A stretch of 64,000 nt of DNA from Halorientalis salina. GTDB taxonomy: Archaea > Halobacteriota > Halobacteria > Halobacteriales > Haloarculaceae. Position numbers and translations under genes: made by a program. The stretch is from the NCBI RefSeq assembly GCF_005049285.1, contig NZ_SOSC01000005.1:1-64000 (forward strand), given 5' to 3'. Position 1 is the stretch's first letter. Every line of letters starts with the position of its first letter. The notes beneath the pieces are model-generated. The model saw only the letters and a program-made list of their open reading frames with translations. It was not told the origin of the DNA and ran no database searches. Below are positions 5,276 through 47,404 of this stretch, in pieces.

Positions 5276-6995
5276 GGGCCCCTCCGTCGGCGGCCGTCGT
5301 TCGCGTGTCCGTGCCGGTCGCGGCGTCGCCGCCGTCGTCGAACGCCGAGAAGTCGATGGCCTCCTCGCGGTCGACGGGGTCTGAATCTCGGTTCATCGTC
5401 GTCGCGTGGAGCGCGTACGTGAGCATCGCCTGGGAGAGCTGTTCGCCCCACAGCGCGTGGCGCTGGCCCTTCCAGCGCTCCTGGTAGAGTTCGTCCAGTG
5501 CCGCGTACGACTGTGCCGCGTCGTACTCGGGATGGAGTTCCTGGGCCATCGCGTGGGTACAGAACCCGCCCTGACAGTTGCCCATCGAGGCGCGGGTCCG
5601 GATGCGGACGGCGTTCAGGTCCGTGCCAGCCTGGCCGATGGCGTCCTGCAGTTCCGCACGGGTGACACCCTCACAGCCACAGACGACGGGATTGGGGTCG
5701 GTAATCGAGAGGACCTCCTCCGCGCGGCTTCCCAGCCGTTGCGTGCTGCGCTTGGCGATGGGCGAGGTCAGGCCGTAGTCGTCCATCGCGTCCTCCAGCA
5801 CCCGGTAGTTCTTACTGCCGGGCAGGGCCACGTCCGCGGTCCGGCAGGTGGCCGAGACGCCGAGTTTGGCACAGACGTGGTCGCTGATGTCCTCGGCCAT
5901 CATCCGGTAGGTCGTGAACTTCCCGCCGACGATGGAGGTCATTCCCGGCAGGCCGTCCCGTTCGGCGTGGTCGAGCAGGAAGAAATCCCGCGTGATGTCC
6001 TCCGAGTCGGTCGTCCCCGAGCCCGGCGGTTCGTACAGCGGGCGCACGCCCCAGTACGAGCGAATCGTTCGAGCGGACTGGAGTTTCGGGACGAGTTTCG
6101 ACAGTTCGTCGATCATCAGGTCGACCTCCCACTGCTCCTCGGGGTAGTCCTCGGGGTCGTCGACCTCCGCGTCGGTCGTTCCCAGAATCGCGGTCGTCTC
6201 GTGGGGGACGATGATGTCGGCGTTGCCCTTGGGTTTACAGCGGTTGATGACGGTGTCGACCTGCCGGACGTTCATGACGGTCATCACGCCCTTCGAGGGG
6301 CGGACCTCGATGTCGACGCCCGCCATCTCGCCGATCTGCCCCGCCCACGCGCCCGTGGCGTTGACGACGTAGTCGGCTTCGATCTCCTCGATCGTCCCGG
6401 CCGCGCCGTGACTACGGGTTCCTTTCCCGCTCTGATGGCGAACCTCGACGCCGACGACCTCGCCGGCCTCGACGAGCAGGTCCGTCACCTCGGCGTGGGT
6501 CTCGATGCGCGCGCCGTGGTTCTCCGCGCTGACCGCGTTGGCCACACAGAGCCGGAAGGGGTCGATTGCCCCGTCGGGGACCGTGATGGCCTTGTCGATG
6601 TCCTTGGCGAGGTACGGTTCGCGCTGGCGGGCCTCCCGCCCGGAGAGGACCTCCGTCGGAATGTCACACTCGTCACAGCCCCGGAGCTTCCGCTCGAAGT
6701 ACTCCTCGGTGTCCTCCGGCCGCTTGACGAACAGGCCGCCGGTCTCCTCGACGCAGTGGCTCGCGATCTCTTCGAGCACGCGCGTCTCCTGTATGCACTC
6801 TCTGGCACTGGCCTGATCGGAGACGGCGTAGCGGCCGCCGCTGTGGAGCAGGCCGTGCATCCGCCCGGTCGTGCCGTGTGTCAGGTTCCCTTTCTCGACG
6901 AGGGTCACGTCCAGACCGCGCATCGCCAGGTCCCTGGCGATCCCACAGCCCGTCGAGCCACCGCCGATGACGAGAACGCTCGGTGTGTCAGCCAT
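5265..6995 (-). CDS. glpA: Anaerobic-type glycerol-3-phosphate dehydrogenase subunit A
   Basis: The catalytic flavoprotein (576 residues). [20 protein letters not shown] at 8-27 is the FAD Rossmann motif; [17 protein letters not shown] and GGKFTTYR are typical of the GlpA/GlpD family. Near the C-terminus a BFD-like [2Fe-2S] domain is marked by Cys 439, 441, 474 and 479. The last 30 residues are a low-complexity acidic tail. It is first in glpABC and divergent from glpK, so glycerol phosphorylation and oxidation can be co-regulated from the 6996-7356 spacer. Confidence 0.96.
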
Positions 6996-40880: not shown

Positions 40881-41930
40881 TCACCGCTCCCGCACACCGG
40901 TTCCCGGCCGGTCCCAGTCGGACAGGTCGATGCGTCCGCCGGGCATTGGGATTCCTTCGAAGGGGTCCTCTGCCAGCAGGAGCGCGCCGTCGAGGTCGGC
41001 GTACTCGACCAGCGGGCCGAGGTGTGCGGCGGCCGCGATGGAGGCGTTGCTCTCGGTCATACAGCCCACCATCACGTCGAGGTCGCAGGCGTGGGCGGCG
41101 TGGATCGCCCGGAGCGCCGCCCGGAGCCCGCCGCACTTGGCGAGTTTGACGACGGCGACGTCGGCGCGGTCGGCCACTGCCGGCACGTCCCGGGCCGTGA
41201 CGCAGCTCTCGTCGACCGCGACGGGGAGCGGGCTCGCATCGTGGACCCGTTTCAGCCCCTCGGGGTCGCCGGCGGGGACGGGTTGTTCGACGAACTCAAC
41301 GTCGTGCTCGGCCAGGAACTCGGTCATCGCGACGGCTCGGTCGGGGTCCCAGGCCCCGTTTGCGTCGACCCGGAGTCGCGCGTCGGGCGCGGCCTCACGG
41401 ACGGCCGCGACGATGTCCCTGTCGCGGTCGGTCCCGAGTTTGACTTTCAGCACCGAGTAGCCGGCGTCGACCGCCGCGGCGGCCCGGTCGGCCATCGCGT
41501 CGGTGTCGGCCAGCCCGATAGTGTAGGAGGAGGAGACGGTCCGGTCGGGGTCCAGCCCCCAGTAGCGGTACAGCGGGAGATCCAACCCCTTGCAAACGAG
41601 GTCGTGGCACGCGACGCTGACGGCGCTCCGGGCCGCCGGGTCCGCGCCTCGGCCGCCGACCGCCTCGGCCATCCGTCGCTCGATGCGCTGGAGCCGGTGG
41701 GGATCACCGACGTCCCTGACGAGGTCGAGCAGATCGGGCATCACGGCCGCGACGGACTCGTGGTCCTCGCCGTAGTACTCGCTGGGCGCGCCGCCGCCGA
41801 TGCCCACGCGGCCGTCCTCGTCAGTAAGACGAACCACGACGTTGCCCGAGCGTTCGGTCGTTCCCCGGGAGATGCCGAATGGCACGTCCAGCGGGAGGTC
41901 GTGCCAGGCGAACTCGGCCGAGAGGGTCAT
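40881..41930 (-). CDS. Enolase-superfamily epimerase, probable N-acyl-D-glutamate racemase (DgcA-like)
   Basis: A 349-residue enolase-superfamily enzyme of the dipeptide-epimerase group. Acid/base lysines are Lys162/164 (LKVKLG) and Lys262/265 (KLAKCGG); metal ligands are Asp189 (RVDANG), Glu215 (VEQPVP) and Asp240 (VDESC). Such proteins were first called L-Ala-D/L-Glu epimerases. Paired with a DUF1611 gene, the set matches the DgcN-DgcA route described for marine bacteria and halophilic archaea, where N-acetyl-D-glutamate is turned into the L form. It overlaps the DUF1611 gene by four bases. Confidence 0.85.
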   Translation of the reverse strand: MTLSAEFAWHDLPLDVPFGISRGTTERSGNVVVRLTDEDGRVGIGGGAPSEYYGEDHESVAAVMPDLLDLVRDVGDPHRLQRIERRMAEAVGGRGADPAARSAVSVACHDLVCKGLDLPLYRYWGLDPDRTVSSSYTIGLADTDAMADRAAAAVDAGYSVLKVKLGTDRDRDIVAAVREAAPDARLRVDANGAWDPDRAVAMTEFLAEHDVEFVEQPVPAGDPEGLKRVHDASPLPVAVDESCVTARDVPAVADRADVAVVKLAKCGGLRAALRAIHAAHACDLDVMVGCMTESNASIAAAAHLGPLVEYADLDGALLLAEDPFEGIPMPGGRIDLSDWDRPGTGVRER

Positions 41931-42946
41931 AGCACCGCGTCGAGGATTTCCGCGGGCCCGAACCGGACGGGGTCGGTCGCCGGGACGCCGAGCGTGGTCG
42001 CGTACTCGATGACGGCCTCGTTCGCGGCCTGTGAGTCGAGGTGGGCGGTGTTCAGCGAGCCGGCCACCACGTCGGCTCCCGACACCGGCGCGGCGAGGTC
42101 CTCGTAGAGCGAGGCGACCTGCGGGAGTTGCGGAATCGGGAACGACTCGTAGCCGTGGATCGCCTCGCGGCCCGCCTCGTGACAGCAGACCAGTCGGTCG
42201 GGCATCGCGCCGTGGAGGATTCCGCAGGTCACCGCCGAGTAGGCGGGATGGGTGATCGACCCCTGGCCTTCGACGACGAGCAGGTCGTGATCGTCGCCCC
42301 GCTCGCAGACCATCCGCTCGACCGCGCCCGCGGTGAAGTCGCTCACCGTCCGGTCGACGGGAATCCCCCAGTCCTCGACGATGATACCGGTCTGACCCGT
42401 CGGGATCAGGGCCGCGTCGACGCCCCGGTCGCGGGCGGCTTCGACCAGTTCGACGCTCGTGGTCATCTTCCCCGTCGAGCAGTCGGTCCCCACCGTCAGC
42501 ACCACGTCGGCGTCCACGTCGCCGGCCAGGCCCTCGGCGACGGTGAGGTCGTCGGGCGGGTCTCGCACGTCCCAGATGTCGCAGTCGTGCTCGGCGGCGA
42601 GGTCACGGAACTCCGGGTCCTCGTTGAGGAAGTAGTGGAGTCCGGAGACCACGTCACAGCCGCGTTCGAGTGCGCCCCGGACGTCGGGCCGCCAGGACTC
42701 GTCGAACTCGCCGCCGATGGGGGCGATACCGACGACGAGCGCGTCCAGCGGCCCCTCGACGTCGTCGATGCTCGCGACGACGGGGGCATCCTGGACGGCC
42801 GCGTCAGAGATGTGGTCGGCCACGCGAGTGCCCGCGTGCTCGCGATCGAGGACTGCGCGCACGTCGTAGTCGGCGTACCGGAGGACCCCGACGGCGGTCT
42901 TCGCTCGGTCGGGAAACCCCTCGTGGGCGAGGACGGCGACGTTCAT
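41927..42946 (-). CDS. DUF1611 protein, probable D-glutamate N-acetyltransferase (DgcN-like)
   Basis: A 339-residue protein with a P-loop-like GTDCSTGKMTTSVELV and the family phrase GIPVDRTVSDFTAGAVE; VEGQGSITHPAYSAVTCGIL is conserved in DUF1611. Start ATG 42946 rather than the in-frame upstream codon, because MNVAVLAHEGFPDRAK opens the first Rossmann strand. It is first in the leftward pair and likely acetylates D-glutamate before the epimerase acts. Substrate assignment is by context. A short divergent spacer separates it from the SecD-like gene. Confidence 0.82.
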   Translation of the reverse strand: MNVAVLAHEGFPDRAKTAVGVLRYADYDVRAVLDREHAGTRVADHISDAAVQDAPVVASIDDVEGPLDALVVGIAPIGGEFDESWRPDVRGALERGCDVVSGLHYFLNEDPEFRDLAAEHDCDIWDVRDPPDDLTVAEGLAGDVDADVVLTVGTDCSTGKMTTSVELVEAARDRGVDAALIPTGQTGIIVEDWGIPVDRTVSDFTAGAVERMVCERGDDHDLLVVEGQGSITHPAYSAVTCGILHGAMPDRLVCCHEAGREAIHGYESFPIPQLPQVASLYEDLAAPVSGADVVAGSLNTAHLDSQAANEAVIEYATTLGVPATDPVRFGPAEILDAVL

Positions 42947-43024
42947 ACCTGGACCCTGGGCACCCCCGGTCATAAACGCCGGCACCGCCCGGGTTTTTGT
43001 GATAGCCCAGCATCAGGTTCGATC

Positions 43025-44149
43025 ATGCGCCGCCTTGCCCTCCTGCTGTTCGGCGTCGTGCTGGCCGCGGGACTCATGGTCGGTCCGGCAACGGGAGCAG
43101 CGACGACGGATGGGAACGAAACCGCTCTGACTGCCGAAATCCAGGGAACGACGGCCACGAACGTGTCGGTTCCGGCCGAAGACGTCGGCGCGGTCCGCTC
43201 GACCGTCGCGACCGAACTCGGCGTCGACGAGCAATCGGTCCGAGTGGCACCCCCTGGGGACACGGTCGAAGTCCGGGAGCGGAACGTCTCGACGGCGGCC
43301 CTGCGGGACGCCCTCGACGCCGCGGGCCTCGACGGTTCGGCGGCCACGATCAGCGAGAGCGTGACGGCCCGGACGCAGGCCGAGACGGTCAGGGTCGTCG
43401 CCACGCGCCTCGACCAGGCGGGGATCGACGCGACGGTCCGGAACGCGACGACCGACGACGGGACGCGCGGCGTCGCGATTCGGTCGACGGACGCCGACCG
43501 TGACGACGTCGTCGGCAACCTCACCTTCGAGGGACGGATCGAGTTCGTCGCCCACTTCCCGGCGGGCAACGGGAGCTACCGGGACGTGACGCTGCTGACG
43601 AACGACGATTTCGCTAACGTCGGATCGGCACGGCCGGGGGCAGCTGGTCGGCCCAATCCCTACGTCCCGGTCACGCTGACCGACGAGGCGGCGGCGAACT
43701 ACTCGGCGGCGATGCGGGAGTTCGGCTTCACCAGTTCCGAGGGCATCGGGAACTGCCCGACCGACGACGCTCGGGCGGACCCGGCGAACGCCTCGGGCTA
43801 CTGTCTGTACACGGCCTCCGACGGCGAGGTCATCTACGCGGCACAGATGAGCGCCGGACTCGCCCGGCAGTTCGAGAACGGCGAGTTCGCGGCCGACCCG
43901 CAGTTCGTCATCACGGCACAGAACATGTCCGAGGCGCGCGACCTCGCGCTCTCGCTCCGCGCCGGCGCGCTCCCGGCACCGCTGGAGCTCGAGTCGACGA
44001 TGGTGAACGAAACAGACGAGAGTGACACGGACAGGGAGACGGACACGGAGACGACCACGAACGGCGACGGGCCCGGCTTCACCGCGGTCGTCGCGCTCGC
44101 GGCGGTGCTGGCGTTCGCAGTGGCCGGGCGGAGAGCCGACTCGCGTTGA
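43025..44149 (+). CDS. SecD ectodomain-like surface protein with PGF-CTERM anchor
   Basis: A 374-residue secreted protein from ATG 43025. It begins with a signal peptide (RRLALLLFGVVLAAGLMV), then sequence closely resembling the extracellular P1 part of haloarchaeal SecD: TARTQAETVRVVATRLDQAG, LLTNDDFANVGS, MSAGLARQFENGEFA and ALSLRAGALPAPLEL. True SecD then continues into five membrane helices that pair with SecF; here these are absent. Instead there is a Thr/Asp/Glu linker and a PGF-CTERM (PGF at 350-352, hydrophobic helix, basic end), which archaeosortase ArtA would cut and lipid-anchor. It cannot translocate by itself; a periplasmic-type folding or export aid is inferred. Confidence 0.85.
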   Translation: MRRLALLLFGVVLAAGLMVGPATGAATTDGNETALTAEIQGTTATNVSVPAEDVGAVRSTVATELGVDEQSVRVAPPGDTVEVRERNVSTAALRDALDAAGLDGSAATISESVTARTQAETVRVVATRLDQAGIDATVRNATTDDGTRGVAIRSTDADRDDVVGNLTFEGRIEFVAHFPAGNGSYRDVTLLTNDDFANVGSARPGAAGRPNPYVPVTLTDEAAANYSAAMREFGFTSSEGIGNCPTDDARADPANASGYCLYTASDGEVIYAAQMSAGLARQFENGEFAADPQFVITAQNMSEARDLALSLRAGALPAPLELESTMVNETDESDTDRETDTETTTNGDGPGFTAVVALAAVLAFAVAGRRADSR

Positions 44150-44152
44150 CGG

Positions 44153-45043
44153 TCACAGGCCGTGGAGTGTAACCGTCCAGAAGTCGCGGAAGGCGTCGTC
44201 GAGCGCGTCCTCGGGGTCGCCGGTGGCGTCTACGGTCGCCGTGGCGTCTGCGACCTCCTCGAACTCGGCCAGCACGGTGCGTTCGCCGACGACGTAGAGC
44301 CGGTCGGTGTCTCGTTCCTCGATGGCTTCCAGACAGCGGTCGACGTGGGTCTCGATCTGTTCGTCGCGGATGCGCTCGAACCGGGACTGGGAGAACCCGC
44401 CCTTTGAGTGTTGGCTCTTGAGTTCGGAGTCGAACCCGTAGAAGGCGGTTCGATCGCGGCCGTCGTACTCGCCCATGGCGAACAGGTCCGACCGGACCAG
44501 CGCGAGCGTGAACTCGCCGGTCGGCTCGATCCGGGACCGGTCGAACGTGAAGGCGTCGTCCCACTCGGCGAACGGTTCGGGTGGAGCCGGAACCGACAGC
44601 GCCGCGCTCACGAGTCCGGCGTCGTCGGTGCAGACGAGACAGGGGGCGGCCCGCGAGACCAGCGCCGCTCGCTCGCCCAGCGCGTCCCGCACCGATTCCG
44701 GAACCGTGGATTCGACGTACGCCGTCAGCGCGCCTTCTCGTTCCGTTTCGACGGTGGCGAGTCGGTCCAGGACCTCGGTAAGTCGGTCGTCGCGGAGCCG
44801 TTCAGTGCGGCGGTACTCCAGCGTCGTCCCCTCGTCGTCGCGGAGTCGCTCGACAGTTCCTTCGAGGGAAGCAATACGGTCCTCAAGGTGGTTGACCCGT
44901 TCTTCGGCCTCCTGTCGGGCACTCACGGCGTCAGTCCGTCGCTCCTCCTCGGCATCGAGCCGTCGCTGCAACTGTTCCCGTTCGTCTTCGAGGTCGTCGA
45001 TCCGCGCTTTCAGCTCGGCGCGCCCGAGCAGCTGGTCCAGCAT
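44153..45043 (-). CDS. Vms1/ANKZF1-type peptidyl-tRNA hydrolase
   Basis: A 296-residue protein. Residues 1-105 form a coiled coil and the rest is a VLRF1 (eRF1-like) domain. The release loop is SKGGFSQSRFERIRDEQ, with the GxxQ catalytic element ending at Gln219. Yeast Vms1 uses this loop to cleave peptidyl-tRNA on stalled 60S subunits, so this protein probably rescues stalled large subunits. It lacks the VCP-binding and zinc-finger parts of eukaryotic Vms1, as expected for archaea. Confidence 0.85.
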   Translation of the reverse strand: MLDQLLGRAELKARIDDLEDEREQLQRRLDAEEERRTDAVSARQEAEERVNHLEDRIASLEGTVERLRDDEGTTLEYRRTERLRDDRLTEVLDRLATVETEREGALTAYVESTVPESVRDALGERAALVSRAAPCLVCTDDAGLVSAALSVPAPPEPFAEWDDAFTFDRSRIEPTGEFTLALVRSDLFAMGEYDGRDRTAFYGFDSELKSQHSKGGFSQSRFERIRDEQIETHVDRCLEAIEERDTDRLYVVGERTVLAEFEEVADATATVDATGDPEDALDDAFRDFWTVTLHGL

Positions 45044-46366: not shown

Positions 46367-47404
46367 ATGAGTGTCCGTCAGACCGCGTTGGTTGTTCTGC
46401 TGGTGGCTATCGGAGTCGCTGCGGTGGTGGCCCCAGCAGCGGGTGCGACGGACGGGCCAGTCGCCGTCGATTCGGTCGCAGCCAACGAGACGAACGAATC
46501 GAGCGGCGAAAACGCCAGTCTGGGGACACAGATCTCCTCGTTCATGCAGGCCAGTTCGGCCGAGACTAACGGTTCGGTCGACGCGGGCATGTGGGAAGCC
46601 GAATTCAACGCGTCGAACGGGACGGAGAAGGCCGCAGTCGTCGAGAACAGAATCAGAACGCTCGACCGTCGGGTCGACAGGCTCGAAGACCGGCTCGCGG
46701 ACCTGGAGGCCAGACACGAGAACGGCAGCCTCCCGGAGGTGGCCTACATGGCACAGGCGAGCCAGTTGACCGCGGAGATCGAGTCGCTCGAACGGTCGAT
46801 CAACGAAACCGACAGCGCGGCGAAAAGCGTCGGTGTGAACGACACGCGTCTCGATAAATTGCGGACCGATGCCAGGAACATGAGCGGTCGCGCGGTGGCG
46901 AACGACGCCCGCGGTCTCTCGGTCGTTTCGCCGCCGGGCCTCGCGCGCGGCGGGCCGCCCGGAGATGCAGGAACACCTGGTAACGGTGGACCAGCGGAGA
47001 ACGCGGGGAACGCCAGAGCTCAGAGACCGGCTGACGACGCCGGTGGTCCCGGAGGGAACGGCCCGCCGGGAGCAGGCGGTAACGGGACAGCAGACGCGGA
47101 CAGGAACGAGACCGGGGCCGAGAACCCATCCGAACGGAACGGGGGAGAACAGCGCGGCCCGACCCGAGACGACACTTCTGAGTCGGGCAGTTCACAAGCA
47201 TCAGACGACCAGACACCGGAGAGCGACGAGAGCGACACGATCGACGGGAGCGACACGGTCGATGGAAGCGACGGCGGCGAGGACGGGGACGCGTCCGGGA
47301 GCGATTCGGGAAACGCGAACCGTAACGATGGTGGGGACTCGACGGGCAACGGTGACACCGGCGGGAACGGTCCGGACCGCGGCGGCCCGCCGTCGGGGCG
47401 ATAA
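46367..47404 (+). CDS. Secreted coiled-coil protein with long disordered tail
   Basis: A 345-residue protein with a signal peptide (ALVVLLVAIGVAAVVAPAAG), about 130 residues rich in N-glycosylation sequons (NET, NGS, NGT), a coiled coil near 85-150 (VENRIRTLDRRVDRLEDRLA), and about 170 residues of Gly/Asp/Asn/Ser repeats. There is no C-terminal helix or PGF motif, so it should be released or held by another surface protein. It precedes the ArsR-type regulator by 54 bases. Haloarchaea often pair a secreted protein of this kind with that regulator. Confidence 0.7.
   Translation: MSVRQTALVVLLVAIGVAAVVAPAAGATDGPVAVDSVAANETNESSGENASLGTQISSFMQASSAETNGSVDAGMWEAEFNASNGTEKAAVVENRIRTLDRRVDRLEDRLADLEARHENGSLPEVAYMAQASQLTAEIESLERSINETDSAAKSVGVNDTRLDKLRTDARNMSGRAVANDARGLSVVSPPGLARGGPPGDAGTPGNGGPAENAGNARAQRPADDAGGPGGNGPPGAGGNGTADADRNETGAENPSERNGGEQRGPTRDDTSESGSSQASDDQTPESDESDTIDGSDTVDGSDGGEDGDASGSDSGNANRNDGGDSTGNGDTGGNGPDRGGPPSGR

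Follow-up and report, generated by a model that had tools for sequence, protein, structure and literature searches.

According to published descriptions of the bacterial SecDF complex, substrates bind to the P1 head, which lies beside the tethered chaperone PpiD and is touched by it (PMC7793623, PMC11470409). In bacteria, this head is driven by proton flow through the membrane bundle. The P1 base and P4 of SecDF form a joint barrel (PMC8669966). The euryarchaea also possess SecDF. SecA is absent from archaea of this kind (PMC2910488). The substrates of archaeosortase A (ArtA) are lipid-anchored, according to the part of the published account drawn on here (PMC7157517). For the understanding of SecDF, it matters whether a SecD head can perform useful work without the proton-driven bundle, and a construct of this type has seemingly been made naturally several times.

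The window considered here, that is, the whole stretch of DNA that was analyzed, covers 64,000 nucleotides of Halorientalis salina (contig NZ_SOSC01000005.1, positions 1 to 64,000). One of its genes encodes a stand-alone SecD P1 protein (P0001), and has the following features and neighbors:

41927..42985, − strand: DUF1611 protein, divergent neighbor and locus marker (Pfam PF07755/PF17396)
43025..44149, + strand: stand-alone SecD-P1 plus PGF-CTERM gene, an intact, stop-free open reading frame of 374 amino acids
43025..43099, + strand: predicted class I signal peptide, residues 1-25 (hydrophobic stretch 1-27, end ATGA-AT)
43121..43525, + strand: residues 33-167, the region of the P1 base subdomain, which has diverged to 29% identity with the SecD of the same genome
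43526..43996, + strand: P1 head subdomain, residues 168-324, ending in RAGALPAPLELE (68% identity to the SecD of the same genome; Pfam PF22599 at residues 202-318)
43754..43804, + strand: Cys244 and Cys260, the head pair, kept in 96% of the stand-alone proteins and 93-100% of the SecDs
43997..44071, + strand: acidic, Thr-rich linker, residues 325-349 (from the sequence and a low pLDDT)
44072..44146, + strand: PGF-CTERM (TIGR04126), with PGF at 44072-44080, a hydrophobic segment and an Arg-containing tail
44153..45043, − strand: acVLRF1/Vms1-like release factor, convergent neighbor (Pfam PF18859, 7.2e-32), a synteny marker for which no partner role is proposed

The start of the gene is backed by homologues that likewise open with MRR and a signal peptide, and the boundary between base and head was drawn from the alignment rather than from a solved structure. 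The relationship with SecD is far beyond chance, given the scores against the NCBIfam model of haloarchaeal SecD (NF006215, residues 33-335, E 5.5e-62, 210 bits) and the Pfam SecDF_P1_head (27.3 bits, cut-off 27), which upholds the original prediction of a SecD P1 paralogue. The equivalog cut-off of NF006215, at 666 bits, is not reached. The homology stops just past the motif RAGALPAP, which had been proposed as the junction from which SecD runs straight into the membrane bundle; this wording was slightly overstated, given that the motif of the genome's own SecD, KAGALPTEL, is followed by approximately 28 residues before the bundle begins. The Pfam scan recovered no SecD_SecF_C domain in the window protein, although it is present in the genome's own SecD, and the only hydrophobic stretches are residues 1-27 and 347-372, so the translocase helices have indeed been lost: TM1 and the RND-type bundle of TM2-6, with its conserved proton-path Asp, are missing. 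Judged by its sequence, then, the window protein is a paralogue of the SecD P1 ectodomain without the translocase bundle, and not a SecD. It contains ten NXS/T sequons and no cysteines other than Cys244 and Cys260, which may form a disulfide in the head.

Two AlphaFold models were produced from a four-row alignment of relatives, one of the full-length protein (pLDDT 66) and one of residues 30-325 (pLDDT 74). When both were compared with the PDB by Foldseek, ranks 1-9 were all SecDF chains, and the best match was 3aqo, the isolated P1 of Thermus (E 1.5e-7 for the full length and 4e-8 for residues 30-325, probability 1.00), with no protein other than SecDF at an E-value of 0.001 or better. The P1 fold was thus recovered in the predicted structure. 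The superposition on 3aqo is poor (TM-score of about 0.4, rmsd of about 10 Å), because the head and base are placed differently in the model, and these predictions are support for P1 homology rather than an accurate overall model. A profile search of the PDB sequences with the window protein also returned SecDF matches, which were weak.

The C-terminus of the protein is tripartite, with PGF at residues 350-352 followed by a hydrophobic segment and a basic tail. The TIGR04126 model scored 27.0 bits in the genome scan, though 22.2 bits in hmmscan, against a cut-off of 24.5 bits, so that membership in the PGF-CTERM class is borderline to good, in keeping with the anchor signal originally proposed. 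In this genome, of 3.66 Mb and 98% completeness, 17 proteins end in a PGF-CTERM, and archaeosortase A is encoded (TIGR04125, 321.6 bits). Its sole other SecD relative is an intact SecD of 518 amino acids with the SecD_SecF_C domain, encoded on another contig directly downstream of secF. As had been anticipated, the cell thus has a SecD besides the window gene, which is a partial paralogue.

The original prediction extended neither to a recurrent class nor to a syntenic locus or separate histories of head and base, although a search of other haloarchaea for SecD-P1 plus PGF-CTERM proteins had been suggested. The same locus accounts for several such proteins: the P1-PGF gene lies between the release-factor and DUF1611 genes in 10 genomes of four genera, including the window (besides it, five Halorientalis genomes, one g15, one g3 and two g43). 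The close relatives with this synteny are Halorientalis persicus, H. pallida, H. regularis and Halorientalis sp. LUM.68 (an unclassified MAG). One Halorientalis genome has a tandem pair of P1-PGF genes at the locus, and two further genomes show the release-factor side of the locus only. The 37 other flanks fetched, including two from Halorientalis and one from g15, have no P1 gene at the locus; in these empty sites the release-factor and DUF1611 genes are often adjacent, and others have DUF1611 at another site or further DNA in between. Synteny favors a single old insertion at the window locus.

An operon at the window locus was rejected, the neighbors being convergent or divergent, and unrelated in kind. 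The acVLRF1/Vms1-like gene has the motif SKGGFSQ, and is found in 132 of the 146 family genomes. Between 38008 and 42985, a gshA-like gene (+) lies near a pair of dipeptide-epimerase-like and DUF1611 genes (−), a trio kept in many relatives, and a secreted low-complexity protein rich in Gly, Asp and Asn (46367-47404, +) is encoded close to the locus in relatives as well. In addition to the P1-PGF gene, the g43 genomes have a pair of full-length secD genes (L122 and L123 in G097; C1:1117159 and C1:1262472 in G099). In the H. regularis ortholog (L096 ~5960-6010, = L033), the signal peptide is apparently frameshifted, reading MRRLTTALLVGAS* versus MRRLTTALLVGGVLV, which appears to be either a sequence error or an incipient pseudogene.

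Profile searches recovered at least 27 stand-alone P1 or P1-head proteins in at least 25 haloarchaeal genomes, the order-wide search being limited to the matches listed at E 1e-50 or better, so that counts outside the listed families are lower bounds. In the family of the window genome, for which the listing is complete, stand-alone proteins occur in 10 of 72 genomes, and in family f4 they occur in none of 70; the class is thus patchy, and therefore dispensable. The same domain carries either a PGF-CTERM or a lipobox, in several families, so that tethering itself has apparently been selected. Lipobox anchors are found on P1 proteins in G001 and G143, and on head-only proteins in G021, G247 and G287, whereas one f7 genus (three genomes) and one f12 genus (six genomes) have head-only proteins of 208-243 amino acids with PGF-CTERM-like ends, some of which miss the PGF-CTERM cut-off. 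In G001, which belongs to the same genus as the window, the lipobox P1 gene, secF and secD lie in a row on one strand, with gaps of approximately 43 and 16 bp. This is the only genomic tie to SecDF that was found, the remaining copies being surrounded by unrelated genes.

In G287 (L100:3946-4513), the lipobox start and the SecD P1 head are in different frames, next to mutL. Six loci (L105-L110) have head-only SecD-P1 plus PGF-CTERM genes in a conserved neighborhood with a GNAT acetyltransferase and methylmalonyl-CoA mutase. A mobile or viral origin received no support, a search of viral contigs by a few exact patterns having given no match. The open-access literature that was searched contains no description of a stand-alone, surface-anchored SecD P1 protein, subscription papers being outside the scope of that search.

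Between related stand-alone genes, the window gene itself being left out, the NG86 omega is 0.34-0.58, versus 0.25-0.39 for the P1 of SecD, and the YN00 values are lower than those of NG86. The stand-alone class is under purifying selection, which is looser than that on SecD; with an intact reading frame and a class omega below 1, no obvious decay is seen, as the original prediction implied. The core of the head is conserved in all the stand-alone forms, and the base is diverged or missing in many of them. At the position of residue 128, all 15 stand-alone proteins of the base alignment (13 P1-PGF, two lipobox) have Arg, and 84% of the SecDs have Lys. The commonest type of stand-alone protein in Halorientalis has a head only about 35-40% like that of SecD.

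The trees of the two subdomains are in conflict over the window protein. The base tree has a branch (90/92) with every stand-alone protein on the same side of it, whereas the head tree (27 proteins, 25 genomes) places P0001, the G001 lipoprotein and the genome's own SecD together (96/96), and a single clade of the stand-alone proteins from the locus, when forced on the head tree, is marginally rejected (p-AU 0.038). The idea that the entire P1 was duplicated recently from the genome's own secD was rejected, given that the pairing of P0001 with this SecD fails in the base tree (p-AU 4e-5), although the same pairing is not rejected when base and head are combined (p 0.083); long-branch attraction among the fast-evolving bases could contribute to the base-tree result. 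Nor does the head tree support a single origin for all the stand-alone forms, and other sites are occupied by several of the lipobox or head-only copies, which look like separate events. Identity at fourfold sites is 39/59 in the head versus 13/32 in the base (Fisher p 0.027, for pairs picked after the trees had been seen), which is no more than suggestive of homogenization of the head with the genome's own SecD by gene conversion. Differing constraints on head and base, with long branches drawing the bases together, are the alternative, and the separate histories of head and base are taken here as a lead.

The explanation preferred here, with a rough probability of 0.45, is that the window protein acts as a motor-less, tethered P1 head, which would hold chains leaving SecYE near SecDF. 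The protein would be secreted and tethered on the outer face of the membrane, through PGF-CTERM processing by archaeosortase A, and its head may bind unfolded chains on their exit from SecYE, either preventing them from sliding back or passing them to SecDF or to the steps of folding and anchoring, in a role likened to that of PpiD beside the SecD head in bacteria. As the bundle is missing, the protein would be unable to use proton flow itself, and thus could not pull, but could hold near the exit. Holding would not require the base, whose part in SecD is to link the head with the proton-driven bundle and with the P4 of SecF, and this would explain the divergence of the base here and its loss in many relatives.

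This explanation is consistent with the P1 homology and fold, with an anchor in place of the bundle, and with the presence of both secF-secD and ArtA in the genome. The G001 gene row, the varied anchors, and the retention of the head core where the base has diverged or been lost all point in the same direction, as do the purifying selection on the class, the grouping of the head with the genome's own SecD, and the substrate-binding role of the bacterial P1 head beside PpiD (PMC7793623, PMC11470409). The patchiness of the class and the lack of a link to secretion among the neighbors of the window gene argue against it, as do the less SecD-like heads of the other Halorientalis type, which fit drift to another role.

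Such drift is central to a second explanation, which appears less probable, in which the P1 or head fold has been reused outside export, for binding the S-layer, a glycan, a ligand or other cells. Stand-alone proteins evolve faster than SecD and have lost its SecD-specific base residues, the divergent heads belong to the commonest Halorientalis type, the locus has no Sec connection, and PGF-CTERM or lipobox placement at the surface is typical of many unrelated proteins. This reuse is harder to reconcile with the copy found directly before secF-secD, with the close resemblance of the window head to the genome's own SecD, or with a head core kept across all the forms. It is less probable again that a free P1 replaces that of SecD at the translocon exit, or binds the P4 of SecF, and so damps or tunes SecDF; the SecD-like head, the operon-like row in one genome and the joint barrel of P1 base and P4 (PMC8669966) would agree with this, but the base, which is the expected contact with P4, is the least conserved part and is often missing. 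A decaying relic, that is, a truncated secD copy that landed before an anchor sequence, would fit the patchy presence, the raised omega, the H. regularis signal peptide and the out-of-frame L100 copy, but is very improbable, given that the signal, domain, linker and anchor are intact in the window and most relatives, the locus is kept in four genera, omega is still below 1, and the Cys pair and core residues are conserved.

Extended to the haloarchaea as a whole, the tethered-head explanation becomes more tentative: an undescribed class of motor-less SecD heads may be tethered at the Sec exit, having arisen more than once and with more than one kind of anchor. Some lineages may keep the head in step with the SecD of the same genome, perhaps through gene conversion, as both would handle the same chains. 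If the stand-alone proteins do bind secretory chains, the role of the head could be tested apart from the motor, and an export factor would be added to archaeal secretion, whose outside steps are poorly known.

Among the nearest known systems is SecD itself, its P1 base and head (P1 of SecDF, PDB 3aqo/3aqp/5xan/5yhf) being shared by sequence and predicted fold, and the head core and Cys pair being common to both groups. SecD has TM1, the GG motif region and the TM2-6 bundle, and the stand-alone proteins have instead a cleavable signal peptide, a linker, and a PGF-CTERM or lipobox.

PpiD has a transmembrane helix as its anchor, and its domains are unrelated to those of the window protein. The likeness here is limited to the proposed role and place, that of a tethered, motor-less protein beside the SecD head (PMC7793623, PMC11470409). 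The window protein shares with the substrates of ArtA, an enzyme that the genome encodes, a C-terminal PGF, a hydrophobic stretch and a basic tail; the S-layer, motility and mating proteins named as substrates in the part of the source drawn on here include none with a SecD P1 domain. Components of SecDF have also been duplicated in bacteria, as in the two Streptomyces forms (PMC4139356) and the marine Na+-type (PMC6028853), but these paralogues are full SecDF homologues, whereas the stand-alone class of the haloarchaea keeps the ectodomain only.
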